Positions 43,466 to 63,123 of a DNA stretch of 64,000 nt are shown here, piece after piece. The stretch is from Lepidurus packardi. Its lineage: Eukaryota > Arthropoda > Branchiopoda > Notostraca > Triopsidae. Location: contig JAKZAN010000131.1 in NCBI GenBank assembly GCA_023053545.1, forward strand, positions 1-64,000, given 5' to 3'. The translations under genes were made by a program, and so were the position numbers. Numbering within the stretch: the stretch's first letter is position 1; each line of letters opens with the position of its first letter. The notes below the pieces were generated by a model that ran no database searches, was not told the DNA's origin, and saw only the letters and a list, made by a program, of their open reading frames with translations.

Positions 43466-46400
43466 TCAAACAACATCCTATTTCAATTCTAGAATCTGGC
43501 ATACAGTGTCAATCGGCCTGTTGCCCCCCAGGCTGTTGAATCGGATGTTCGAGTTCTGCTTCCCGAACCCTACGAATGTCTGCTCCCCTCCTCGGTTGTA
43601 CTCCTACAGTCGCTAGGTCACCTGCAGGAAGTCCTCGATCCCTGTCTTGAAGATGCTCTTTCGAGAATATCGCTCATATTTGGGGTCTGATAACTCTTTG
43701 TTGGCCTGCAGTAAGCTACATACCAAACCCTCAAGTTTAAAGCTTAGAGGCAACAGCGCTTGTTGATAGGGCTCGAAATGGTAGTCACCGAGTGGCATAA
43801 TACCTGAGTTTTTGTCAGCGAATCTGGCGAGAGCTTCAACGAACTCTAAGAAATGCAGAGATCGAAGCACATTCGACTCTTCGATTTCGAGCATTCGACT
43901 ATAGTCAAAGCACATTCTAAGTTCATCCTTAAGCTCACCAGTTGTGTGCTCCTGGTCTCCCACCTTGGCATCCAAAAATATCTAGTGAAACTCTTCCAAC
44001 TTCATCCTTTTTCTGCTGAAGTTGTACTTGGAGAAGAGTTTTTCGAGGAAGGTTTTGTAGAGTTTGAGTAGACGGTCGTTATCCTCATTCCAATACCTCT
44101 GGGTTCTCCAGCTGCTACCGAAACTGTACACTTCGTGATAGTTGCTCAGCTTCTTGACCAGTCTTTCCAGACCAGAGGCATAGGTGAACTTAACTTACTC
44201 GCCTTCTTTGTTAATGAGTTTTGTATTCAGATACTTTTCCTCAGCAATTCTGATCAACAGCTCCAAAAAAGTAGCCCTGGTGAGTCTTTTTGTTGGGTCC
44301 TTCTGATGCTCGTTGGAAGTGCATGCGATAAATTTCATAGTCTAGTGTCCTTAAGAATGATGGTAAGAAGGAGGAGTTTGTTACGAATATGGAGGGAGTG
44401 AACTTCAGAGAGATATAGCCCATGTCCTTGGCAAATGAGACACCCTTTTCGAGAGTAATTCCGTAGTTATCTTCTCCCATGAAGCAGTCATTGGATAGAA
44501 GCATGAACACATTCCTCAGCACCAGAAAGTTCTGTCTGAATACGTCCAATGCTGCTTTCAAATCGGGTTCTTTCCTGATCAGCTTTGTCACCTTGTTGTT
44601 CTGGAGATCGAATCTGAGGCATTTTTCGATCAGATCTTCACTGTTCTAGTTCTTCCAGCCTTTGAAAAAACTGGTAGCAAAATTAAACCCTGTCTCGATC
44701 ACCTTCTTTTAGGAGGCGCGAGGATAGATTCCAAAAGTGTAACTGTAATTCTCGTTGAATGCAGCGCACTCGAGTGTGTTGACTGTATAATTGACATAAT
44801 GGATCCGAGGTGGTATTGTCTTTCCCGAATTGCTGATAATGTTCTAATCAGCTGTCCTGTACATAGCTGAGGTAAAAGTATCCTCGAGCAGTCCTTCAGG
44901 GCTGAATACGAATAGAACAGTTCCAAGAGGCATCATCTTGATGCACTCGAACGTGTCCAGAGACTTCTTGATCATCTTGACAGGTTGATAGGCGCTGAAG
45001 GAAAAGTGGATATAACATTCTTCCTGGTTTTCTTGCGTCTCAATCTCAATAGATGTCTAAAAATAGGGTTACGACTCTTCCCAGTCACTATATTGCATAG
45101 AACATTAAACTTACTTCCTGCCATCCTTCGCAGATCCAGCACACATTATGTTCTCCTGTGTACATGATTTCGTGCAGTTTAGCATCCTGCTGATACCGTA
45201 CTCCTGAAATTCTACGTACACCGTTTTTTGACTTGATAGGGACGGGTAAAGGCTTCCTGTCAGTTGGCTTAATGAAACCGTCAGAATTCACATAACCGAA
45301 ATTCCCTTAGAAATGGACACCTATAAGGGAGCTATTGTCCTGAAAAGCATCCGCGATGGCTTTGGCCTCGACTGGGTCGAAGTTGCAGTGCGATAAATCC
45401 AGATGCACAAGGTTTTTGTTGGCCTAAATGATGGTCGTCAGAAAGATAGTATTTTTAATGTGACCGCCAAGTGTATTCCAGCTTAGGTCCAGAACCTTAA
45501 GGCTCTTGTTCCTGGAGAGTCCATCATAGAAAACACTCACACACTCAGGACTAAAGCTGCACCAGTGAAGGTAGAGTTCCATCAGGATACACTCAGATTT
45601 CGACAGATGCTTAGATATCTCCTAGCAGCTCCTGATACCGAAGAAGTTTAGACTCAGATTGAGTACTTAAAGAGTCTTTGGATTCATCGAACTGATGAGC
45701 AAACAACAGGTTTTATCGGTGAGGTTGTTGGACTCTACATTCAGATATCTTAGCTTGGAGGTAGCCTGGCTCAGAGTCAGCGATAGCTCACGGACACCCA
45801 GCAACCCGATAGAGTTATAACTGATATCTAGGGACGCTAGGCTGCGTACTTTCTTGAGAAACAAACATGCAGCCTATTCGTCCAAGGAGTTATAGCTGAT
45901 ATTGATTTCTGTGTAGTTGCCGAGCAGTTCGAGGATGTTCGAAATTGCCTTGACCATCTTAACTCCCGCAAGGCCCAGCCGACTAAGGTCTAGCGTCTGG
46001 TCGCTGCCCGTCTATTTGATGATTTGAAGAGTCCTTGGGGCGAGGTTGGCCCTCACGAGTTCGTTAAGAATCAGGCCAAACACATTCTATGGGTCGTTAA
46101 TAGCCTGAGCACCCTATCTTTCCTTCATCCTTTCGATGCTCTTGTAATACTTGTAGTACTAATTTTTCGACTCTTTGCTGACAATCTGTGTGGTCCGGAA
46201 ATCCTGATCTTGTGCCTCCCCATTGTGGGATGAGAACGATACATGTTCACCACTATTCTGGTCAAAATCCCTCTGTTTCCTTCTCTGCTGTTATCTGTCG
46301 CGAAGCCTCTGCATCTGAATACTGCCTCGAGCTGTGAGGGTGATCATTAACTTTGGTTTATCTTGATTCTGGGAGGGTGTCGCTAAGGATTTGAGTGACA

Positions 46401-46497
46401 GTCTTCTTGCTGGTTCATCAGTTATCGGTGTTTCTATAGTCTTCTGAGCAGGAGCCAGTTTGGGGAGTGAAAGTCGCTGTCTAGATTGTAATTTCAT
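43466..46497 (-). CDS. Large leucine-rich-repeat protein with helical C-terminal domain
   Basis: A 976-aa protein in three exons; introns 45057-45114 (58 nt) and 44342-44384 (43 nt). The N-terminal 170 residues are polar. An RNI-type LRR block covers about 180-410 (LDLSRLGLAGVKMVKAI, YTEINISYNSLDE, LASLDISYNSIGL). A middle domain and a helical C-terminal domain follow (FIACTSNEHQKDPTKRLTR, FLELLIRIAEEKYLN). No signal peptide is present. LRR proteins with this long helical tail occur in ciliates and other protists with cilia and are often axonemal. The exact family is not recognised. Confidence 0.8.
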
Positions 46498-46617: not shown

Positions 46618-48552
46618 TCAAAAAGCTTTAGAGCCACTTGTGCCGTAATATTGTCTAACCTTCTTATCGAGTTCCTCTCTGCTCTTCTGGAGAGCTGCCA
46701 GTTTTTCCTGCATAGAATAGGGAACTGATGTCGCTTTCTTCTCCTGGTTGACGGATTAAGTATCGAAATCAGTCCCGAATAGTTGTCCATACTTCGGATC
46801 CTTCAGCAAAGCAGTACATTCATCCAATACTTTCTTGAGATTAAACTCTTTTTTCTCAGGACTCATGAGTGTTTGCATGAACTCATACTCACTAGCACAA
46901 CCTTCGATGTTTCTGTCCATGTTCTTCAAAAAGATGACCCAGAAGAGTGGCAAGACAGATGGCCTGGCCTTACCACTTTTAAGAAGGAAACCCATGACCT
47001 AAGTCCACTCTGCATCAATGAAATAGTCTAGGAACAGAGAGTAGAGTGCCTTCCTGCAGAACATCTAAAAGTTGATATTGAATCTGTTCTGGATGACAGC
47101 ATAGAGCCTGGGAATCAAAATGATGCTAAGTTCTCTCATAAATTCATCGGTGCTTTGGCTGGCTAGCTTGATGAAGAAGTAAGATAACGAGGCAGCCTCC
47201 TTCCCAGAATACTGCCTGTGCAGTTGTTGGATAAGCTGACATGAGGATTGCGGGTACTCGTCAAATACGTAGTCCTTGTCAAAGATTCTCCTGAGTAGCT
47301 AAACTGACTCTTTTACTTCGCTGCTCCACTCCTAATCTGAAAGTTATTCTTCATCCTTGCTATCCTCATCTTCTCTACCATGTGATGCTTGTCTCGCTAA
47401 TTCGTGTAAATCTACCAGAGGAATGACTATAGCTTCTTAATGGGGTCCCAAATGTCTGCTTTTAGCAACTGAGTTGACCTCTAGATTCTGGGTGTTTTAC
47501 TCATCCTTTTCTACATTTATACAGAGTCTATCCTTCTTGAGAGCTATTTTTCTCCATCCCTTTAACTCGTGAAATTTGAAGGTGAGGGCAGGTTTGGTGC
47601 ACAGTATTAACTACCCATAGGAAGTGATGTCGAAATGATAGATAGGACATTATTTCATCTAGATAAGATATGTAGTAGTTAATTCCTGATAGTTGATAGT
47701 TCTAATGGAATGATTAGAACACTGCACCATGAGATTCTACTTAGTCGACGTCACATTGGAAACCTTTGCGTCTAAGGTAACTTTGCTTCTTGTATTGGTT
47801 GTAAAATCTAGGATATAAAGACCTTTGAAATTGCCATGAACGGTCGCTAAGGATGTTTTCTGATGGTAGTTAAGTTTCGGATCGTCGAAATTCTCCTGTA
47901 GTCTGAAGATTTTATGAGACTCTAGGGTTTTGATGTCGATAACACTAATTTGAAAGTCCTATTGGCCATTTATTAAGGATATTGAAAGGTGGTGTTGTTA
48001 CTTTAGTCAGCACACATAAAGAATAGTCGTTAGCATTGAGGAAATCTGCACTTAGGTATTTGTCGTGGTGAGTCTTAATGATCTGAATTCGGTAGGGTTT
48101 ATTGAGCTCAACAAGGTGCAGACTTCCTGGGAACTGTAATAGAGCTGATCGAAGTTCGGGATTAAATTTTAGCGTCAAAAGCTAGGTATTTTCCTGAATA
48201 CGCGAGAGTCTGCTGACTTTATTGGTTGTCAGGCAAATCTAGGATAGAGTGGAGTCATCGTTGAAATGCACCAGAATCTAGGGGTTTCCTTCTAGATGTG
48301 TGGAATAGAGGATTGGTCAGGAGTATTACTTTTCCATGTGAACCGGCTAACTGGACGGTCAGTTATCACACGATGATGTTTTCTCCTGATGTCGACTAGG
48401 TGAAGCATGCCTTTGGAGTCTTGAAAGACTAATGTATTCTTTTCCTCGTCAAACTCGGCATATGTGGGATGGCAATCAACGCTGAGACTAAGTCTAGCTG
48501 TTTCTGGAAGGACTTGGGTGTTGTGTGGGGTAGAATTGACACTTTTCTGCAT
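46618..48552 (-). CDS. WD-repeat-like protein with helical C-terminus
   Basis: A 617-aa protein in three exons; introns 48292-48329 (38 nt) and 47959-48001 (43 nt). The first 320 residues show beta-propeller-like repeats (LVFQDSKGMLHLVDIRR, LLTLKFNPELRSALL, SLCVLTKDFQISVIDI, GLYILDFTTNTRSKV) without a full set of WD motifs. The C-terminal 200 residues are helical (LLRRIFDKDYVF, LSYFFIKLASQSTDEFM) and end in a short coiled coil. Propeller plus solenoid architecture is typical of scaffold or coat proteins. No precise family assigned. Confidence 0.72.
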
Positions 48553-48715: not shown

Positions 48716-51277
48716 ATGTCGTGTGATACTAACTTCGGGTTCCTCCTAAAATTACGTGAACCACCCAATCCTCTCTATATTCTGTCTTTCAAGGACCCCA
48801 TTCTTGCTCGTTTCTTCAGGTCCTGGACTACTATCTAACCATTTCGGAAACGGTGTCATGCAGTTGGTCCCTTTTAATGGTCATTCTGGCTGAATGGTTC
48901 GGTCTAATCAGAGAAGTTCGCAAAGGAGATCGTAGGAAATCTGAGGCTACTTAAATGGTTACATCTCAAAGATCTCGGACTAGACCGCCTGGAACTATCT
49001 CAGTATCTGAAGCAGAGCTCAGAACTTGGTGACTTATTGAAATATCACTACGAGGGCTATTAGATAGTATAGGAGGACATCAATGACTATGCGAGGGGCG
49101 ACTTGGTATTGTTCTATCATAGGTAGAGAACTGCAGATGTCATTGCTGAGTCGGTTGCACACGAGTTCGAAGGACTCACCCACGAAGTAGTATCCTTAGA
49201 TCCTGAGTAGGTTTTGATCAATAGTGGCTTGAGTCAGAACCAAAAAAGACTTCGACCGATCCTCTAACACTTATGTAGTTTCTATAAGGATAAGCTAAGT
49301 GCCTAATTATGTTCTCCACTCAACATTATGCTAAAGAATCTGAGTCCTTTTGATGGAAGGTCTGTTTGTTTGGAGGTAATAGGGTTGCGGAAGTATTTCT
49401 ATCAATTGTATGACAAGTTTATGCATTGGCTGGAGATTGGACTGAAGCTGTGCGTCAAATCCACAGAGGAAATCGAGCCAGAGCGTCTACCTAGATTCTA
49501 AAAGCGTGTCATATAGCGCATGGAGGCACAAAAGGTGTATGAACCATAGATATCCTACATCGTGAACAAAAAGTTCATGCTGCTCTTGGGATCCACGAAA
49601 ATGGACTAATAAATACTCTATTAACTGTAATGCTCATGGTGCAATCTGGCCAATTATTTGGAGTAGCGCGATAAGACCCAACTCTTTAACAGTAGAGAAG
49701 CCTGTGAAGAACTTCAAAAGAAAATTAGACGGGGCATTAGGTGGAAGTAGTTCATTTTCAACGAAGAGGGGCAGAAGATACTGTTGTTATGTGGTCGGGA
49801 GGAAGGCCAGAAAGCAGTAGCCATTTTGAGAGATTACGTGTTCCGGAAATGCCTAGTCCCTCTCTCCTATGCATTCAAAACTCGCGAAGCCTATGAGTAC
49901 TTCAAAGAGTAGCAAAACTCTGATAAGTTATTTGAGAACTTAGTATTCAAACAAAACTAGCCACTGCCTGGAGAAGAGATAGAAGAAGGGTCCTGTATTA
50001 TCACACTTTCAAGTACCAAGAACCATGAAGACCAAGTCATAAAAAGACTTGAAGCCTATGAGGCAAACTTCTATAAAGTGAGAGTGACCATACCCATTAA
50101 AAGAGAAGTAAGTCTTTCGGAAAGGAAGTCCATTAGAAAAATAGAGAGACCTGGTTCTGGGGTGTACAAGGGTTGTGTCGACAGCTAGTTTAACTACCAA
50201 GTTGGATTGGGTACTGTGAGAATTGTAGCTGAGTTAGATAGCTGCCTTTACGACAGAGTTATTGTTCCCGTCCACCATGATGGCACGTTTTTCAGTGATA
50301 TTTGTTCTAAGCTGCTCCAACGTGAAAACGTCCCAAAACTAAAGAAGACTCGGCCTTAGTTCAAGGATAGGGTCAATACTGAGTGCAACTAGTGGGAGTC
50401 ACCGCGATAAATCCTGTTGTTTTACGTACCTGCAACAAGTAACTAAATACGATAAGACCTCAAAAAGATCATCGACATCAGAAAATCTGATGCTTCAGCC
50501 GGTACCCTCTGGTTTCTTACCCCTGAAGCCCTTGAAGATCTGTCGACCATATAAATTCTATACGTGATTAGAGGATATCTAATGCATAACTGGAAGAAGC
50601 AGCCTTTTTTAAGAAAGTTTGGATTCATATGTTCAGGTTCCGAACACACGAAATCATTCAAGAATAAGCTGATTCGTTCCATGCAAGGGCATGCCAAACC
50701 TAGAACCCCGCCCCTCACCAGTAATCTTCTTGACTGGGTTTCAGAGTGCCAGTTGAAGGTCTATAGAATGACGGTTTCTCTGAAAAACTTTCCATTCTTT
50801 TGTCTTCCGATCGTAGTGCAGAGACACCTGAACATGCTTTCGATGAATGAATCAGAGACCTTAAAGCCAAGACTATTCGTAGTAATACCACCATCGGATG
50901 CAGTAAATGTCGAATAACTAGTTGTTCACTGCAGGGAAAAAGTGGTCATCAACGCCACTAGAATGATATCCTTACCTTTGGACTAATACTGGAAAACTCT
51001 TAAAAATAGTCCTGGGAAGAACCTTCTCAGGGACTTTATACAGCTCAATTTGGAGGAAGATACTCGAAGTACGGAGAGTGTGATCACAACGATGTACGTG
51101 AAGGCAGAGAATCCTGTAGAAATCTGCGGGAAGGTCTACCGGGTGTAACCAGACTAACTGTGTCCTTTGCACACTTCTGAACCACCCCTCAAATTTGAAA
51201 TAAGGAGGGAAAATGTCTCAGTCAATCTGGTGTGTGGGCACCCTGATTCACTCCTGAGACTGCTTCGAGTGCCATGA
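48716..51277 (+). CDS. 853-aa protein of unknown function
   Basis: A long single-exon frame with many TAA/TAG codons, ending in TGA at 51275. The N-terminus (MSCDTNFGFLLKLREPPN) has no signal peptide. The protein mixes helical blocks with alpha/beta segments such as FMLLLGSTKMD and KILLLCGREEGQKAVAILRD, which could be KH-like, but no GxxG loop is clear. The C-terminus carries two Cys/His pairs (LCPLH, LVCGHPDSLLRLL) that might be a degenerate zinc site. I do not recognise the family. The start at 48716 is the first ATG in this frame; an earlier ATG at 48687 is in another frame and soon meets TGA. Confidence 0.8.
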
Positions 51278-51667: not shown

Positions 51668-51841
51668 TTACACCTTTAATTGAATCCCATGAATACTTCG
51701 AACTTAATCATCGCTAGAGGACCAGCTACTTGAGGACTGCATCAGGTTTGATCAGTTACTCATGACTCCTACTTTAAATTTACAATTTTTACTTATCTTG
51801 AAACATACCCACGATTTCACAGACTAAACAATAGATTCTAC

Positions 51842-54823
51842 ATGGAGCCTAAGTAAACTAACAAGGTCAAGTACTCAGTCTTCGTCAGGATCCGTCCCTC
51901 GCTCAAACTTGCTGCCTCAGCTCCTATTTTCAGGTCTGAACGTACCAAATATGTTAAAGAATTCCGAGAGAAGTCCATAGTCACCTACTGTTTTGATCAT
52001 GTCTTTGATTCTGAGAGCACAAACCAAGACATCTACGACAAAGGTTGTGGCAAGATGGTATCCGCCTTTCTTAACAAGCAAGTCAGTACTACTATCCTGG
52101 CCTACGGACAGACTGGTTCTGGCAAAACCTACACCCTTTTCGGACACAAAAACCAGAGCTAAAATGGGATTGCAACCCATATCGTGGATGAGGTGCTCCT
52201 GTATTGCCAGAATAACAACAAGAAGATCCTTTGCACCTTCATCCAGATATACAAAGAGAAAGTGACTGACTTAATCAGCAACAAGCCGATTCTCCTCAGA
52301 GACAATAGTAAGGGCGATCTTGTACTCGAAAACCAAACCGTCTGTGAAGTGTCTTCCAAGAAAGAATTCGCTTAGTTTTATGCCCAAGCCAACTAAAATA
52401 AAATATTCGGTAGCTCTTATGTCCACAACGAATCTTCCCGCTCACATGTCATGTTCTCTCTGAGGGTTAACGGCGCAAACCTTAACATCGTCGACCTCTG
52501 TGGTAGCTAGGTTCTGACCTACCAGTTTGACCAGAAACAGCGAGACGAAACTAACAGTATCAACCTTTCGCTGTTTACTCTGAATTCGGTGATCAGCGAT
52601 CTGTGCGATACCAACAATTCTAAAAAATTTATATCGTTCAGAAACTCTGTACTCACTCGACTCCTCAAAAGTAGTCTGGTCAATACAATGACTGTCACGC
52701 AGGTCTGTCTCTTTTGTAATATCTCACCTGAGGCGGAGCATCGCGATCTCAGTGCCAGTACTCTACATTTCGGACAGCTTGCTATTAAGGTAGATCAAGC
52801 AGACAACATAAAGTAAGAAACAGTCAACAGAAGTCAACAAAAAAGAGATCTGAAGAAGGTTGATAATATTTTGAGCATCACTCCAGTTCCTTACAGAGGT
52901 CTTTTAAGATCCAGATGGCAATGGGAAGCTTAGAAGGTAAATATCTGTGGGAATATCACGAGAGTGTTGAAAATGCAGTCAAAGGATACAGCAACAGATA
53001 ATGTTTTGTTGCTACATGCTTATGGAGGAGGCTGTTGTGGCTAGGACTGGGACAATCTGGTGTCTTACCTTCTAGAGCCAGGTTCATACAATCTCTTCTC
53101 AGTGGATTTCCCAGGTTTCGGCTACTCAGATGGTAAGAAATTCAGCTCAAGGGCAGAAAAGTTTACCACTAAAGGAGAATCCATCGAGTTCCTACAATAG
53201 CTATTTAAATATTTTGGGTTCAATCCCAAGAATAAAGTCACTCTCATCGGATATGATCTTGGAGGTGCTATCGCCTTACATGCTGGTCTGGTGGCGCCTC
53301 TAGCCAAGTGTCTCACGAGCATCTGCGTCTTCCATCCAACATGGACCGACTCCATCGATCGTCTGTCGGCTATAACATCTCCGACGCTAATCTTGTGGGC
53401 AGCAACTTAGACGTTCCATCTTGTGAGTGCTGGCGAGAAAATGGCTAAGACCATCAAAGGGTCGATCATGCATAAATACAATATAGGGCCTTATACGAAC
53501 TAGAAAGCAGCTGGCTACTTTGACATGTACTTTGAGACCGTAGCCAAATCATTCTTGGAGTTCTTGTAGAGTTTAAATCCTTAAAAAACATCAGACAGAA
53601 GAGGAGAAGTAATTGAAGAGATCATTGTGACTAATGTTAGTAAGCAAGAGGAAGAATTGAGTAAGGCTCGAGCTTCAGTTCAGTAATTTTTGAGGATGAT
53701 AGAGCAAAATACCCACAACCAGGTCTACGAGTCATTATGGAAGGGTGGCAGTGGTAAACCCAAAGCTGTAAAACTTGCCTCAGACTTGCCCCTCCTCGAC
53801 TTACAGTCCATAAGTTTGGAGCTGCTCAAAAGATACTAAATCTGGTCTATTTGCCCATCGACAGATAACCTACGAAATGGTTTGCCCTTACTGCCGGCTG
53901 GTCGGCAGGTCCAAGTTAAGACCAATATCCATCTCTCAGTGTTATAAGGCCCAGATAATTATCTTGCATACTGGCCTAAGGGAGAGCTCGGGATCACCCA
54001 CAAAGCTTATATTGCAAGAGATCAGACGGAGGAAGAGATATACTAAAAGAGACGGGTGAAGGTCATTGTCGACAACTATAAATCATCGAAATAAAATAGG
54101 AAAAGCGTAATTGAAGTACCCCTTGCTGACGTAATCAGGCTGAATTCTGCCACTATTTTCAGACGGAACAACATGGGAGACCTTATCTTTGAAGATTCAG
54201 TTACGTGCAAATATTCCTCAGCATTCGTGAAATTGAAAATGCTCGAATGCTGTAACGCTATCCGTCCTCTGGTCGAAAAGATGGACTTCACTCAGAACAA
54301 TATGGAGTTATTGAACTTGCAAATGGAATGTACCCGTAGGATACAACAGCTTATCAATCTCCGACACCTGGTTCACTAGGGCATAGACAATACCAGGTTC
54401 ACAGGTATCGATGTCGGCAAACTCGCATATTATGGCCAGGGGAACTGCCACCACTTGGCTAGTGTTGCTGCTGCCTTTTTGCTGCCTTTCGGCAAGATTC
54501 TGGGCTGGGATGTTATTTTTAGAGCAGGTTCTTTCTTCAAAACAGGGAGAGAGCTCGACGCATCGGGTATGCCTCTGGAAGGTTGGGACGGAAGACCAAA
54601 AACAAGCGTAGAGGATCACACGTGGCTCGAACTCGTCTACAAGCCTTCCTACTACATGTGTGTGTTCGACCCCAGCTTCGACATCTGCAGTGCATAGCTG
54701 GACCGGATCTATAGTTTATAAGGCAAGATGCACATTTCAGACCGACTACACTGCAATAGTCTGGAGCCCCCAGTTCCTGACAAACTGTACAGTGCCACTG
54801 AATGCTTGAGCACTGGCTACTGA
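51842..54823 (+). CDS. Kinesin motor fused to alpha/beta-hydrolase and transglutaminase-like domains
   Basis: A 993-aa protein in one uninterrupted frame. Residues 1-320 are a full kinesin motor: P-loop GQTGSGKT at about 89, switch I NESSRSH near 197 and switch II DLCGSE at 223, where the Glu is a TAG codon. Residues about 375-575 are an alpha/beta-hydrolase fold: LLLHAYGGG at 392, nucleophile elbow GYDLGG with Asp472 instead of Ser, and a candidate acid Glu523 (TAG) in WAATE. A linker leads to residues about 780-990, where GQGNCHHLAS (Cys869), DHTWLEL (His926) and FDPSFD (Asp943) form a transglutaminase/papain-like triad. I know no described kinesin with this architecture. A motor that carries modifying enzymes is inference. 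No coiled-coil stalk is obvious, so it may be monomeric. Confidence 0.9.
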
Positions 54824-54913: not shown

Positions 54914-55735
54914 TCACAGTGCATGACCCACAACCTTATCGCACATGCCCTCGATCAGCATCAGGATTGTTTCTTCGGTCCGGTTCCGGGAATTCTTCTC
55001 GTGTTCCAACTCTTCGCCCACGAATTTCAGAAGTTCTCCTAAGGTTTTGTAGATACTTGTTTCCGAGTCCTCCCGCTGTTCTGCCAGACTCTGCAGCATG
55101 TTCGTTAACTGATCTAGGTCCCCAGATATCTACTCCATTACTTCCTCGTCTACCTGCTCGCGTGTCCTGGCTTCCTCCTCGATCATGTCTTTGAGTTTCG
55201 GGAGATCTCCTTCCAGCGTCGACTTAATCTCCTGGATGCTTTTGGTCCTATTTTTAGTTTCTAAGGCTACACTATTCCTGATTTGGCCAAGCCTCTATAC
55301 AATAGATTTAGCGATTCGTGCCTCTGAATCTTTCCTGAAGTTCATTTCTTGTTCGATGCTGTCTGAGAACTTCTCCTGGTATTTCCGATGCACTGGCTCA
55401 TAGGACCTGCGCAAACCTAGTCTGGAAGAGCCCCCTGATTCACTCACATCGATATTTCTCTCTATTTTGACGAGCTATCAACCAATGCAGTTCTATTGAT
55501 ATTAACACAATAGTACATTTTCTTTGAGTTCGCTGAAGTCAGCCGTAGAGCGTTACTCAAGGTCCTCGAGTCTGTTCTAGATATCCTAGATGCGCTGCTC
55601 GATTGTTTGGTACTTCTGCTGCCGCTGGACTTCGATGCCACTTTTGATGCCATTTAGCTTATCGAAGATCTTGCTGATTCGCTCGTCATGGGATGACCTG
55701 GCAAGATCGTAGGTTGAAATCCTCGGGGATGTCAT
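54914..55735 (-). CDS. SF-assemblin family striated-fibre protein
   Basis: A 259-aa protein in two exons; the 42-nt intron is 55475-55516. After a short head (MTSPRISTYDLARSS) the protein is a continuous coiled coil of charged heptads (ISKIFDKLNGIKSGIEVQ, RIEDIENRLEDLEER, YEPVHRKYQEKFSDSIEQ) to the C-terminus. Length, short non-helical head and long rod fit SF-assemblin, which builds striated basal-body rootlets (kinetodesmal fibres in ciliates). Several Glu in the heptads are TAA/TAG codons. Confidence 0.75.
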
Positions 55736-55849: not shown

Positions 55850-58800
55850 ATGGCTGATCCTTCTACTCTGTCTTTCGGGCTCACCAGTCCTTATGAACTA
55901 GCCCTCAAAACCCAGGAACCCTTAAACTCTCATGACTTCAGTATGTTCTGCATCGGCCATAATGCCTTCGTGCTCAGAAACGGCAACACCTTTAATTGCC
56001 TCATCTATTAGCAGCCCAATCGATAACTCCTTGTTAAAAAATCTTCAATCTTCAATCTCTAGAACAAACGAATAGTATCGATTAGCGTGTTGGGTCCCGA
56101 TCCATCTCTGGTCCTCGTGCTCACCAATACTGAACTTCTCGGGCTTAGCCTCAATAAATCTACCTTGTAAATCCAGGCGACTGTTTTATTAACAGTAACT
56201 AACCAAAACTACGAACATGTCTGTGCTGTGTCGGCCACTTCAGTCTTCCTCGTGACTTCGAAGTGTGAGTTAGAGCTTTTCGAGTTGACCAACGCTTGGC
56301 AAATGACTGCAAGTCCAAACCCCATGTTGGTGAAGGGGTCCGTCAGTATTCCTGAGGTTAGTAACGGAAAGATCAAAAAGATACTGATTGTACCCAGTCC
56401 CCAGAACAACAAGTACTTAGGACTAGTTGTCACTCAATACCAGGGTTCGGATTTCCCCAAATAAACCCTGAGCGTTGTTGAAATAAACTGCGCCAAAAAA
56501 GAGGGGTCATCGGCAGATGTGTTAAGCTGTGATAATTTCGATGTGGAAGATGTGCGAGTCGAGGGTTTCCTCATACTTTCTAGTTTCCGAGTCTATGTGC
56601 ACTAGGAAAAGAAGACTGAATACCTGGAAGCATGCCTCAACAACCAGTTAGTTGTCATCTGCAAGTTTGTCAAGAAGTATATGATCTGGGAGGCTGTCTA
56701 CGACAAGAAAATCAAATAAGATGTCTTAGACTTCAGACTGGGATTCGCCACGCCACACTCCTTCTATGTCGTCCAAAAGCTTCATATTGAAATCCATGAA
56801 CTCAGTCTCAACGAGGACAAATCGTCCAAAATGACTCTGCTCGAGGCTAAGTTGAGGGACTTCATCCCCGATGAAATGAGTCTGCAATTACCTTTTCTGG
56901 GGGTATGCACAAGCAAGTCAGGACAGATGATCCTGAACAAGCAGAAAAACAACTCAGTATGTCTGCGTCACACCTTCAGCATGGATCCATTGTAAAAACT
57001 CAGTCAGGCAGTTACCCTCATGACACACCAGAAGGATCTCGAGAAGGAGTTACCAGTTATTATCGATTTCATATCCAAAAAAACAGGTAGTACCAAGAAA
57101 GAAGTCCAGAAACAGTTATGGTTAAGGTGGCCGCGTGTGCTGGAGAAGAACAGCGAGTTCATCAAGAAACTCCTAGCTGTCAATGACCCAGTCTATATCG
57201 AAGAACAGATCAAGTCCCTGCTTCAGTAAAGCCCCCTCAAAATCTAGTTGGTCGAGGATCTCCTGTTGAAGTGCAAAAATATGTACAAAAAGGAGATTAC
57301 CAAGGCATTTAACTGTAAGTCAGCTCTCGCCTTTATCAAATGCAACTTCAGACTGAAGAAGATGCGGCTTCATATGGGCAGCTGCAAAATGAGTCTTATC
57401 ACTTACAAGGAGTTTGCAGAAATTTAGGAACGCAATATCGCCAAGGAAATCAAGCTTTACTTTGAGGAGTTCAGGAAGGCTGACCTACAGATTGCCCTAA
57501 CCTTGTTCGGCAAGCACTTCTTCGCCACATATGAGTAGAATATAATCTATGCCTTTGAGAGGATACGCGATCTGACCTATTTTGTGTCCAATTTCAACTT
57601 CTTGTTTCCCCTACCCAAGAACCCTCAGATCTGGGAGCTCAGGATGGACAAGAGAGAAACTGAAGTCCAGCTAGAAACGCTCAAAAAGTGGCACGCAGCA
57701 GCCAAAAGCAAAACTCCAGAACTGCCCACGTGGGAGGAGTCTCTCAAAGAACTCAAAGCTGGTTGTAGAGGCTACATGATGGACAACGACATATTCCCGG
57801 ATCCTGTGCCTCCCCAAGATGGTTCTGTGAGCTCATATGAGGATGCTTACTACAGCTTCTTCACTGCGTTAATCAAAGTAGCCAAAACCGACGCATAGGA
57901 GACATTTAGAATTCTGGATATTCTTGCTATAGAGAACGAAATTCAACAAGAAATCAAAGACAAGCTAGATGTGATTCTGGAACTATACTTTTTGATAGAC
58001 TCCCCGAAGGTAGATCTCAAGACCATGTTAAAACTGACGCCAGAGGGATTCTTCGCGTATCTGCTGGAACTCTAAATCTACGATAGCTTCGTAGGAATCG
58101 TCAGGGAATGTTTCGATGAGCTCGAAGCCCATTCTCTGTGTGAGTCTTTCGCGAACTACCTCAAAAAATATTTCACCTCCCACACAGTGCTCTGCTCGCA
58201 CTTCGGCATGATTCTCAAGGCTGCCCAGAGCATCGAGCAAGAAGACTTCGAAATGATTCTAGAGACTCTGATCGACTGCATCTACGAGACGATGCTGATA
58301 ACTCAGGCGTAATATGTGCAGAACTACATAGAGACCTATTTTTTGTATCAGGGAATCAAGAGTTCAACCCTGAAGACTAAACTGTTGAGGCTCGAAAATA
58401 TCATCGCCAGAGAGGATCTTTTTTCGAATCTCCACTCTAATCTGACTCTACTGGAAATCGAGTACGGGGACAAAGTCATACAACTCAAGATCGAGAAGTA
58501 CTTCTCAAAACCTGATCTCCCGAAGTTCATGAAGTTCGTTGATGAGATCGTCTACTTACGTGAGGAGTTTTATCTGTAAATACCCATCAACAGACTCCTG
58601 AAGGATCTACTGTGCTCCGTCATCAACTGCGTCAAGAAATGGGGAACACTAGTATCACAACTACTCACCCATAGGATTCTCAGCAAGGTGCTAGAAGCCA
58701 AAGCTTTACTCGAATAACAAATTTTTATCAGAAGAAACTACCTGTATACTCATTTCCCAGACTTTGCCAGCATCAAATCCCATATGGAAGAACTCATGAT

Positions 58801-60073
58801 CCAGTATGGCGAGCCTAGTTTCAGATCGATCTAGACATTGCGACTCGAGTGGTTTTCGATGGTTCACTGCCTTCCCAATCACTGTCCCAGCAAGTGCATC
58901 GACATAAACACTACAGAAGCTTGCTTTGACCTCTATAAGTTCATCGACCTCCCTGAACTCTATTAGCTTCTTCCTCAACAGTCCCAGAAAACGCGGCTCG
59001 TAGAACTATTCTTCAAACTAAACTCTCATGCGACCTAGATGGGTTATACAGAAAAAAGTGTACTTTCGGAGATGGCCCTCAAGCAGATCCTGAGAGTTTG
59101 CGAACAGGCTCTTGAGGAAAGAAACTTCTAAAGATTCCTCTAATGCTTTTAAGAACACCTGACTAAAAAGAGAGACACCGACAACTTGGACTTGAGACTA
59201 CTCTGGATCAAGTTCATGGGTTACTATGCACAAGAAAACTATTGGAACTCACAAGGTAAGCAGTTCCTTAAGCGATGCCTCTTTTCGATTGTGGACTTCA
59301 AAGAGTCCATGCACCAATTCTTTAGTTTCCTGAACTAAGAGAATGAATAGATGTTCGAGTCAGACCCAGAGATAGCAATCCGAATGTCCAACAGTTTCCT
59401 CAAGGCTAAAGGACAGAAGTGGGCCCTGCATAAAATTAAAGTTATCGAGCAGAAGATAAGCAAAAACCTACAAAAAGAACTCAGCACTGTAGAGTTCATG
59501 TTTAGGCACTTGTTGCTCGTCGACCATATGATAGCCTTCTACCTGCTTAAACGTAGCCTCAAGGAAGTGGACATCGACAACATCTATAAAATCGTCATTC
59601 TGACCGTTGAATCAGAGTATATAGTGTATAAGGCCGTCATAATGAACTCTCTGCTGGATGCTATCTGCCAGATCTTTGTGCTGGCTTACCCTAATGAGAC
59701 GATGACTCTCTCCGAGATCACCCACCACAAACTATTGTCGCTGATTCTAAAGCTCAAACCTAATGCGAAGGACGAATCTAGTCGCAACCAGCTGACATTC
59801 TACTAAACCATAATAGCCAACACTGTCCGACTTAAATAGTTTTATGAGAAAATCGGGGACAAGAAGGTCGTAGAAGATGTTTTCGACGCGTCATCACGGC
59901 GCATCGACGACGTACTGAATACCTTGGAGGTGTTCAATAGCACGATACTTCCAGTTTTCAAGCTTTCTGCGAGCGAGGGGAAGGACAACACCGAGAAGGC
60001 CTACAGCAATCATATCCAGATCGGAGAGTGCCTAGTGGAATCAGAGGTGGATGAAAGTCAGCTGACACATTGA
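55850..60073 (+). CDS. Large propeller-solenoid protein, nucleoporin-like (Nup133/Nup155 type)
   Basis: A 1407-aa protein in a single exon. The first 400 residues are beta-strand-rich and propeller-like (FCIGHNAFVLRNGNTFNCLI, LVLVLTNTELLGLSLNKS, VFLVTSKCELELFELTN). The remaining 1000 residues are alpha-helical repeats without recognisable catalytic motifs. This two-part architecture and length fit scaffold nucleoporins of the Nup133/Nup155 group, but vesicle-coat or other propeller-solenoid proteins look alike at this level. The absence of any intron over 4.2 kb is notable because shorter neighbours have several. Family assignment is tentative; the gene itself is certain. Confidence 0.85.
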
Positions 60074-60239: not shown

Positions 60240-61781
60240 ATGAACCAGGAACACGCCAAGGCAAGGCATTTCCGCAAGAAATTCAACCTCCAGATTAACA
60301 CTCAATAAGAAAACCACAGCCTCTCCAAGACTCCTGTACCATCTGGCAAGAAGCACTGCCTCGCAGACATACAGCCCCCGCGCATCTACTCTTGCCAGAA
60401 TATAGACAAGAAGCACTTCCTCTTTCCTGACTACGAGCGCAGGCGATAGATAGATGAGACAATCAACAAGCTCTGCAAGCTCGAAAGCGAAAAATCAGCT
60501 CTTCTGCAATAGCTTTAGAGACTCAGGTAAGGCGCCGTGAGTGCCATCATCGAGAAATAGTAGGTGATCGAGAAGTTGAAGGAGAAAATAGAAATGGTTG
60601 AGTACGGAAAGGACTTTGAAGATGATGAGAAGCTGAGGGAGAAGTACCAACTCGAGATCAGGATGTAGTAGGCGAGTAGGGAGCTCAGAAAACTGCAGGC
60701 AGACTTGGCAGTGATGCGGACCGAACACGTAGAAAGCATATAAAAGAAAGACGCCCTGATCGTCTAACTGGGGGAGGAATTGGAGGCAGCCAAACTGAGG
60801 GTGCGGTAGCTGTAAGACTAGGAGAAGAGCCTATCAGAAAAATTATTCAAGGTAGAATCGTAAAATCAGGAGTTATACGAATCCTTAAGCAGATCTAAAA
60901 TTGGAATATCGATGCTCCAGTAAAGCCTAAGATCAGGGAGTATTGGGCCAAGCGCTATAGATCTTGACAATATCTCCAACTTTCAGCTGTCCGAAAGGAT
61001 GGCGACTGAAGAGTCAGGCCGGCATCTCACAGAACGAGAAGAAGAAAGCGATGAGGAAGAAGATTACCAGCAAGAATTGCTGAGGCTGCGCGCGCGAAAT
61101 TAAGAGCAAAGAGAGTTGCATCGGATGGAGTTGGAGTATATTAAGAGCTTCTATGAAAAAAAGCTGGAACTCTCCAAAAAACGATTTTAGGACGACATCC
61201 ATGAGATGATGGGAGAGGTTTACGAGAGTGAGGAAAACAGGGATCATGTGCCTTCATAGGATAGTGGATCCCTCAACAGAGGTCAAGATAATGCCTGCGA
61301 CAACTACGAGTACAGAGTACTCAGGTAAGAGATCTAAGACAACCAAAGAACTGGTCGGAATTAAGAAGAAGTCGGCAGCATGTGCTCGAGAAGCAAGAAC
61401 CGCCTACATACTAACTAGAATTGCGATCTAAAGTCGGAGTTCAGTGAACGACATTTCCAGTACCAGCCGAGACTGTTCCATTAGGACAAATTGATCACCC
61501 AGAACAGTACCGACTATGATGTGAGTGTGCGGCATCTACGGGTACTGCATCAGAATAGCCTTGGGGAGCTAAGGTCGCAGGGCCGGAAGAGTGGTGCTAT
61601 GAAGCATTCCGTCGGAACCAACACACCTACATAAAATGAGGCCTGGGCATTCAGTGCGGAAAATGAGTCTAAGCTGACTAGTTTTTTGAATTGCTTCCGG
61701 AAAAAAGAGGTCGGGATAGTGGTGGGAAGCGCACTGTTGAGTGCAGGGATCCTGTTCGCAACTCTTCGGAAGAACAACTGA
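60240..61781 (+). CDS. Coiled-coil protein with C-terminal membrane anchor
   Basis: A 513-aa single-exon protein. A basic N-terminus (MNQEHAKARHFRKKFNL) leads into long coiled coils (about 75-215 and 275-335), then a polar region. A C-terminal hydrophobic helix (VGIVVGSALLSAGILFATL) is followed by RKNN, the layout of a tail-anchored protein of ER, mitochondria or vesicles. Such proteins (golgin- or tether-like) link membranes to each other or to cytoskeleton. No specific family recognised. Confidence 0.8.
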
Positions 61782-61962: not shown

Positions 61963-63123
61963 ATGTCCCAATAGAGCGAATTCTTCCTATATATCTCTCT
62001 TGTCTCCAAGTTCTATGAAAAGGTCACTGCCACCCACTCGCGCCGCGAACACCTCAAGACTCTCCTCCAAACCTTCAAACAGGACCTTCATTCTAAACGC
62101 CTCCATGAAGTCCATGACTCTTCACCCCGCCACACCTCCAAAATTAAACTCAATAAGAAGCTCGATACAATCCTCCCAGACTTCCACATCTCCTGTCTCT
62201 TCTCCGATAACAACAACTTCTATAGAGTCCTGGGCTTCTCCTACCTCCTCAATATAGTTACCAGCAATGACCCGCAGCTCATAAAGAGTCTAGGTGAGGA
62301 GATGTCGAATGGAAACCGGGAGCTGGCAGCACAGTCGGAACCCAGCAGCAGCTCCATATTTCTGCAGACAGTCGCTCTCAAGAAAATTCTACTATTACTG
62401 GAATACTTTAAGACCTCAGGCAGAAGTAACGTGAGCGTGCGAAATCGGCTCTAAACCATCGCCAATGAGGACAAAGAGATCTTCGCCAAGATGATCAAAA
62501 TACTAATCATTACCCGTAAGCCCAGTCTGGGACAGTCTCTGTCTGAGGACAACCCTGCAGATAGCTTATTGCCGCAGTTCGCTGATTTACTGGATGTCAG
62601 TATCACTCTATATGAAGTCGAGTAGAACACTTACTTCAGGAAAACGTACGGGAAGGGACGCTTCTAAGTACTGCTGGGATTCGAAAACAACTCTAGGATT
62701 TACTTCAACCTCACCAAAAAGACACCTACACCTGACAGTAATCCATTCGAGAGGTCAATAAAGGATTTCGATAATGGAGGGTCCTCGCTCACTAAATCTG
62801 CCAGAGACACAGAGAAAAGCACGGGCAAAAAGATAGTGTCGGGGAACCAGCTGTTGGTTAGTCCAACGGCCAGATAAAATTCTTACCGCAAGATTGAGAT
62901 CAGCAGCTCAAGAGAGATGCCAATAGAAGTTCAGACTTAGACGTAGATTCCTTCTCGCGACCAGCCAGTCGAGACAGGCATCTTCGAGTAGCTGCTTCGG
63001 AACATCAGCAAGAACACAGAGGCGCTGGCGAAGAACAAGAAGATTAACACATCGAACCCCGTAGACGATTCGAAGATCGTTGCGAAACTGAAAAACTCTA
63101 TATCCCAATTGAGCAGACGGTGA
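61963..63123 (+). CDS. Otubain-like (OTU C65) protein lacking the catalytic Cys
   Basis: A 386-aa single-exon protein. The otubain core is visible at about 60-260: LPDFHISCLFSDNNNFYRVL followed by GFSYLLNIV (otubains: LGDGNCFYRAFGFSYLEA), then helical segments, then a region matching ADLLDVSITLYEVE. The active-site Cys of GDGNC-F is Asn here, and no HYxILY-type His motif is found at the end of the domain (ENNSRIYFNLTKK). It should therefore bind but not cleave ubiquitin. The C-terminal 130 residues are polar and probably disordered. Confidence 0.75.

Follow-up and report, generated by a model that had tools for sequence, protein, structure and literature searches.

The window analysed here, a stretch of 64,000 nucleotides from an assembly deposited for Lepidurus packardi (contig JAKZAN010000131.1, positions 1 to 64,000), contains what is probably one gene, in which a kinesin motor is continued by two further domains. 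Its single open frame lies on the plus strand at 51842..54823 and encodes 993 amino acids: the motor, an alpha/beta-hydrolase fold and a third region that resembles the transglutaminase superfamily. Translated with NCBI table 30 ("peritrich nuclei"), in which TGA is the stop, the frame has one terminal TGA and no internal TGA, as an earlier note on this DNA had claimed, and 21 TAA/TAG codons are translated as Glu. Upstream the frame is bounded by a TGA at 51749-51751 (1024 codons including the stop), and its first ATG, at 51842, stands immediately 5' of the motor.

To examine the genetic code, the fusion protein was aligned with ten further kinesin stretches from the assembly, using columns in which the majority residue reaches at least 60%. 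Twelve such columns hold TAA or TAG, and the 19 codons in question fall on Glu 14 times, on Asp four times, on Gly once and never on Gln. Code 30, with TAA and TAG as Glu, is thus supported, since these codons in the kinesins of the assembly mostly occupy Glu columns. The host of the fusion gene appears to be a peritrich-type ciliate, a single-celled organism. In the accessible portion of the peritrich code paper (PMC4967479) two peritrichs are named only as analysed. The fusion gene sits on C120 of the 344 contigs of the assembly, which is apparently a mix of two organisms, contigs C1-C6 versus C80 and above. On the multi-megabase contigs C1-C6 the kinesin matches are mostly short, exon-like and devoid of TAA/TAG, whereas on the contigs of about 50-100 kb (C80 and above) the kinesins are mostly long frames containing these codons. 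A mixed assembly invites the suspicion that the gene is a chimera or the product of a misjoined contig. We consider this extremely improbable, because the same reassigned codons are found on both sides of the join within one frame, and because the join of the hydrolase to the third region recurs in P0037, a database protein described below.

The N-terminal kinesin motor and a neck-linker-like stretch occupy residues 12-330 (51875..52831, +), as defined by PF00225 and by kinesins of the PDB. PF00225 covers residues 33-314 with E = 2.9e-60 and 204.4 bits against a cut-off of 29.3, and the best PDB match is 7z2b (E = 2.4e-29). The complete motor announced in the earlier note is borne out by translation and alignment, with intact P-loop GQTGSGKT (residues 89-96; 52106..52129, +), switch I SSRSH (residues 198-202; 52433..52447, +) and switch II DLCGSE (residues 218-223; 52493..52510, +), the Glu of the latter being a TAG codon. 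By its motor domain, as judged from the sequence, the protein is a divergent member of the kinesin superfamily; the closest PDB chains belong to kinesin-8, Kar3 and kinesin-2, with E-values that lie within two orders of magnitude and no clear best family among them. A search of its own genome gave, among the best candidates scored, 35 matches at E<=0.001, 34 of them inside residues 1-345, and beyond residue 345 only the fusion gene itself was matched. Aligned with its counterparts from the assembly, the motor diverges downstream of switch II and again in the 'SKLTRLLQDSLGGN' segment, for which YRDSKLTRLLQDSLGGN is the usual reading. This divergence, and the absence of an evident long coiled coil behind the motor (read by eye from the translation), would fit a motor that does not walk and instead anchors the tail to microtubules in a nucleotide-sensitive manner. 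Such an anchor is conceivable but somewhat unlikely, given that the P-loop and both switch motifs are kept, and a motor that is active seems the better reading.

Behind the motor, residues 361-590 (52922..53611, +) form an alpha/beta-hydrolase fold, capless and CIB-like, which was recognized by Pfam (E = 1.5e-10, above the cut-off), by the predicted model, whose nearest structure is the CIB-like 3bdi, and by alignment with 3bdi. The fold that had been postulated at this place is therefore present; the idea of an active hydrolase fared differently. The usual position of the Ser nucleophile is taken by Asp472 in GYDLGG (53255..53257, +), aligned with GASMGG of 3bdi, and Asp is kept there in five of five sequences. 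Three sequences extend beyond residue 526, and they share no conserved His there: His544, the sole His of the fusion protein after residue 526, is Phe in P0037 and Tyr in P0040. The place of a catalytic His is deduced here from the fold, and the printed 3bdi alignment ends upstream of it. The Asp at the nucleophile position and the lack of a conserved His after residue 526 indicate that the middle domain is probably no classical hydrolase.

The third region carries the transglutaminase-superfamily-like domain (residues 780-973; 54179..54760, +), delimited from 35 fragments, a model and structural comparison. With the last 147 residues as query, 35 of 54 candidate proteins were matched, at E-values from 8.5e-59 to 1.4e-12; they are 82-213 amino acids long and 56-93% identical, and the weakest, P0036, is aligned over 27% of the query. 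Alignments that placed hydrolase fragments wrongly on the last domain were left out of the counts. A 43-residue core is covered by 32 of the 36 rows, with 21 groups at 95% identity. Three residues, predicted in the earlier note at these very numbers and in this order, are strongly conserved in the rows that reach them: Cys869 in GQGNCHHL (54446..54448, +) in 34 of 34 rows, fusion protein included, His926 in VEDHTWLE (54617..54619, +) in 16 of 17, and Asp943 in VFDPSF (54668..54670, +) in 13 of 13. The sole exception at His926 is P0036, whose end fails to align.

Judged by their titles, 48 of the 50 structural neighbours listed for the last-domain model are transglutaminases, PNGases, N-acetyltransferases/amide synthases, LapG or vasohibin, with middling Z-scores; in this comparison model residues 211-412 are spanned by at least one fifth of the rows. 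The entries 7n6g_6E (central pair C1) and 6j8o_B ('a hypothetical protease') could not be placed by title and are not counted among the 48. Profile searches of the tail matched the hydrolase part and left the last part without a Pfam match above the cut-off: on the third region no Pfam family was found at E<=10, and when the last-domain profile was run against the PDB, nothing matched. Elsewhere in the assembly PF01841 has six matches at E<=10, on C1, C4 and C6 and none on the contig of the fusion gene. By its conserved residues and its model, the last domain is a probable cysteine enzyme of the transglutaminase superfamily. This superfamily includes crosslinkers, proteases, PNGases and acyltransferases, hence a 'transglutaminase' activity would be just one option. 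The last domain appears to represent a conserved protein domain family for which no Pfam model scores above the cut-off here.

The ends of the last-domain fragments also bear on the code. The residue expected after the end of the fragment is readable from the alignment for 31 of the 35, and the next column has a Glu majority in 20 cases, Asp or a tie in five, Ser in three, Lys in two, Asn in one and Gln in none. For five fragments the very next column is Glu in 14/15 or 16/16 rows; for the other 15 it is mixed, with Asp or Gln in part of the rows. Some of these ends may be contig ends. Since fragments stop where Glu is expected, their sequences suggest that several of the sources, and probably many, read TAA/TAG as Glu.

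How firmly the domains are joined differs between the two junctions. The connecting region between hydrolase and last domain (residues 591-779; 53612..54178, +) is modelled with low confidence, and up to about residue 713 it is in frame with the hydrolase in P0037. The latter, an independent database protein of 332 residues, spans residues ~389 to 713 and so contains the hydrolase and the start of the third region. P0023, a fragment of the last domain, and P0037 have longest contigs of equal size, which suggests that both come from one contig. The linker between motor and hydrolase is short (residues 331-360; 52832..52921, +) and its modelled part has low pLDDT. A protein search with residues 340-993 returned nothing at E<=0.001 among 7994 candidates scored; it takes only proteins of ~546-1737 amino acids and is therefore blind to fragments. 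Scans for relatives gave no pattern match in viral contigs, and 46 pattern matches with no relative among them in genome contigs.

The earlier note had also excluded an intron, which holds for the uninterrupted frame and less so for a 42-nucleotide GT...AG stretch close to the linker (52937..52978, +). Read from the sequence, it could be an in-frame intron, because the minus-strand neighbour seems to hold one of equal length. It starts and ends on codon boundaries, and its removal would take out residues 366-379, including M378, and keep the frame and the join, so that the domains are joined either way. From residue 284 to 533 the frame has a single ATG, that of M378, which lies inside the first hairpin of the model; P0039, aligned locally with the fusion protein, begins to match at residue 387 and so does not cover this hairpin. 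By codon-bias profiling the linker could not be told apart from conserved coding stretches, which hence proves nothing in either direction, and the frame gaps of two other kinesins, read for introns, were uninformative.

The neighbour in question is a coiled-coil-like gene (54914-55735, -), apparently of two exons, perhaps of the SF-assemblin kind as we presume; its putative 42-nucleotide GTA...TAG intron at ~55475-55516 contains an in-frame TGA. Further neighbours are a leucine-rich-repeat protein (45085-46497, -; PF13516, E = 9e-13) and five frames of 370-1407 amino acids (48716-51277, 55850-60073, 60240-61781 and 61963-63123, +; 46618-47730, -) without a Pfam match at E<=0.001.

Taken together, we propose, with about even confidence, that this is one peritrich-type gene for a divergent kinesin with a conserved two-domain tail, consisting of a non-classical hydrolase fold and a probable cysteine enzyme, and that it would be expressed as one mRNA. 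Several points weigh against this proposal. The join of kinesin and hydrolase is known from the window of the fusion gene alone and is seen in none of the four relatives found for that stretch, and PF01841 stays below its cut-off against the last-domain family (best E 0.066, 11 of 36 members), so that the transglutaminase-like domain named in the earlier note stands on the conserved Cys, His and Asp and on the model with its middling structural neighbours. The missing join in relatives, the shortness of the linker, a linker frame that is not coding-like (the codon-bias profile not being used as proof) and the intron of about 42 nucleotides inferred next door would all suit two separate genes. 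In that case a kinesin would end near 52830-52960 by way of an undetected intron, a hydrolase-plus-last-domain gene would follow, and the open join would be fortuitous. We consider this quite improbable: the frame is not interrupted by TGA, the hydrolase has no ATG in frame upstream of its first strands, and ~35 codons of open frame would have to accommodate a terminator, a promoter and a start of their own.

A single gene might also encode a tail in which both folds are catalytically silent and bind proteins, with the motor carrying cargo in the ordinary way. Cilia contain conserved pseudo-enzyme scaffolds, and the ciliary proteins CEP76 and CC2D2A have transglutaminase-like domains that are thought to be inactive. 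The middle domain, with no conserved His after residue 526, would fit such a tail, but in the last domain the three residues Cys, His and Asp are kept with their surroundings across divergent fragments, which would be needless for an inactive site. A silent tail is thus unlikely. If the single fusion protein with a probable cysteine enzyme is accepted, the hydrolase fold would probably be a binding or positioning domain, and the last domain probably an enzyme for amide-bond cleavage, deamidation, crosslinking or acyl transfer, which the motor would bring to microtubules or hold there. Its targets on microtubules may be tubulin tails, axonemal or cortical proteins, or cargo. Kinesin tails are generally regarded as cargo-binding; if the proposal is true, transport and protein modification would be united in one kinesin molecule. 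An improbable but attractive extension is a self-propelled enzyme, in which a peritrich kinesin fused to a cysteine protease or acyltransferase of the transglutaminase superfamily would edit tubulin tails or axonemal or stalk proteins along microtubules in a vasohibin-like manner, while the degenerate hydrolase presents the substrate.

Known systems resemble the fusion protein only in part. Compared with the CIB/ABHD14-like capless hydrolases (3bdi, 1imj), which have Ser at the elbow, the fusion protein has Asp there and no conserved late His, and its domain sits behind a kinesin. A sequence that we take to be PNGase-like lies on contig C4 (L025). Against the last-domain profile one PNGase-like sequence gave an hhalign E of 0.015 with a probability of 3% over 20 columns. 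The vasohibins VASH1 and VASH2 are tubulin tyrosine carboxypeptidases. For VASH2, the consulted portion of the structural paper gives the triad Cys158-His193-Ser210 and a pairing with SVBP (PMC6642083); on these data the spacing from His to the third residue is 17 in both proteins, whereas VASH2 has Ser as third residue and SVBP as partner and the fusion protein has Asp943 and a built-in motor. With Asp943 as its third residue, the fusion protein lacks the Cys-His-Ser triad described there. Tubulin tails are an attractive, though unproven, substrate, since vasohibin is among the structural neighbours and the spacing is equal.

With known kinesins (PF00225) the protein shares the N-terminal motor, the P-loop, both switches and the neck-linker-like stretch; it differs by its divergence and by a tail of two enzyme-like folds. 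Among titles and abstract openings in the literature we found no description of a kinesin with a hydrolase and transglutaminase-like tail. In the main text of Wickstead et al. (2010; PMC2867816), as far as it was available, the words hydrolase, transglutaminase and catalytic are absent; it reports 105 kinesin architectures in 45 genomes, most of them from one organism each, and finds that 1300 of 1624 kinesins have no other identifiable domain. An odd kinesin architecture is by itself not rare, as most of those 105 are confined to one organism. What is unusual here is a tail of two enzyme folds, the last of which is strongly conserved, with its three residues, in many sources.
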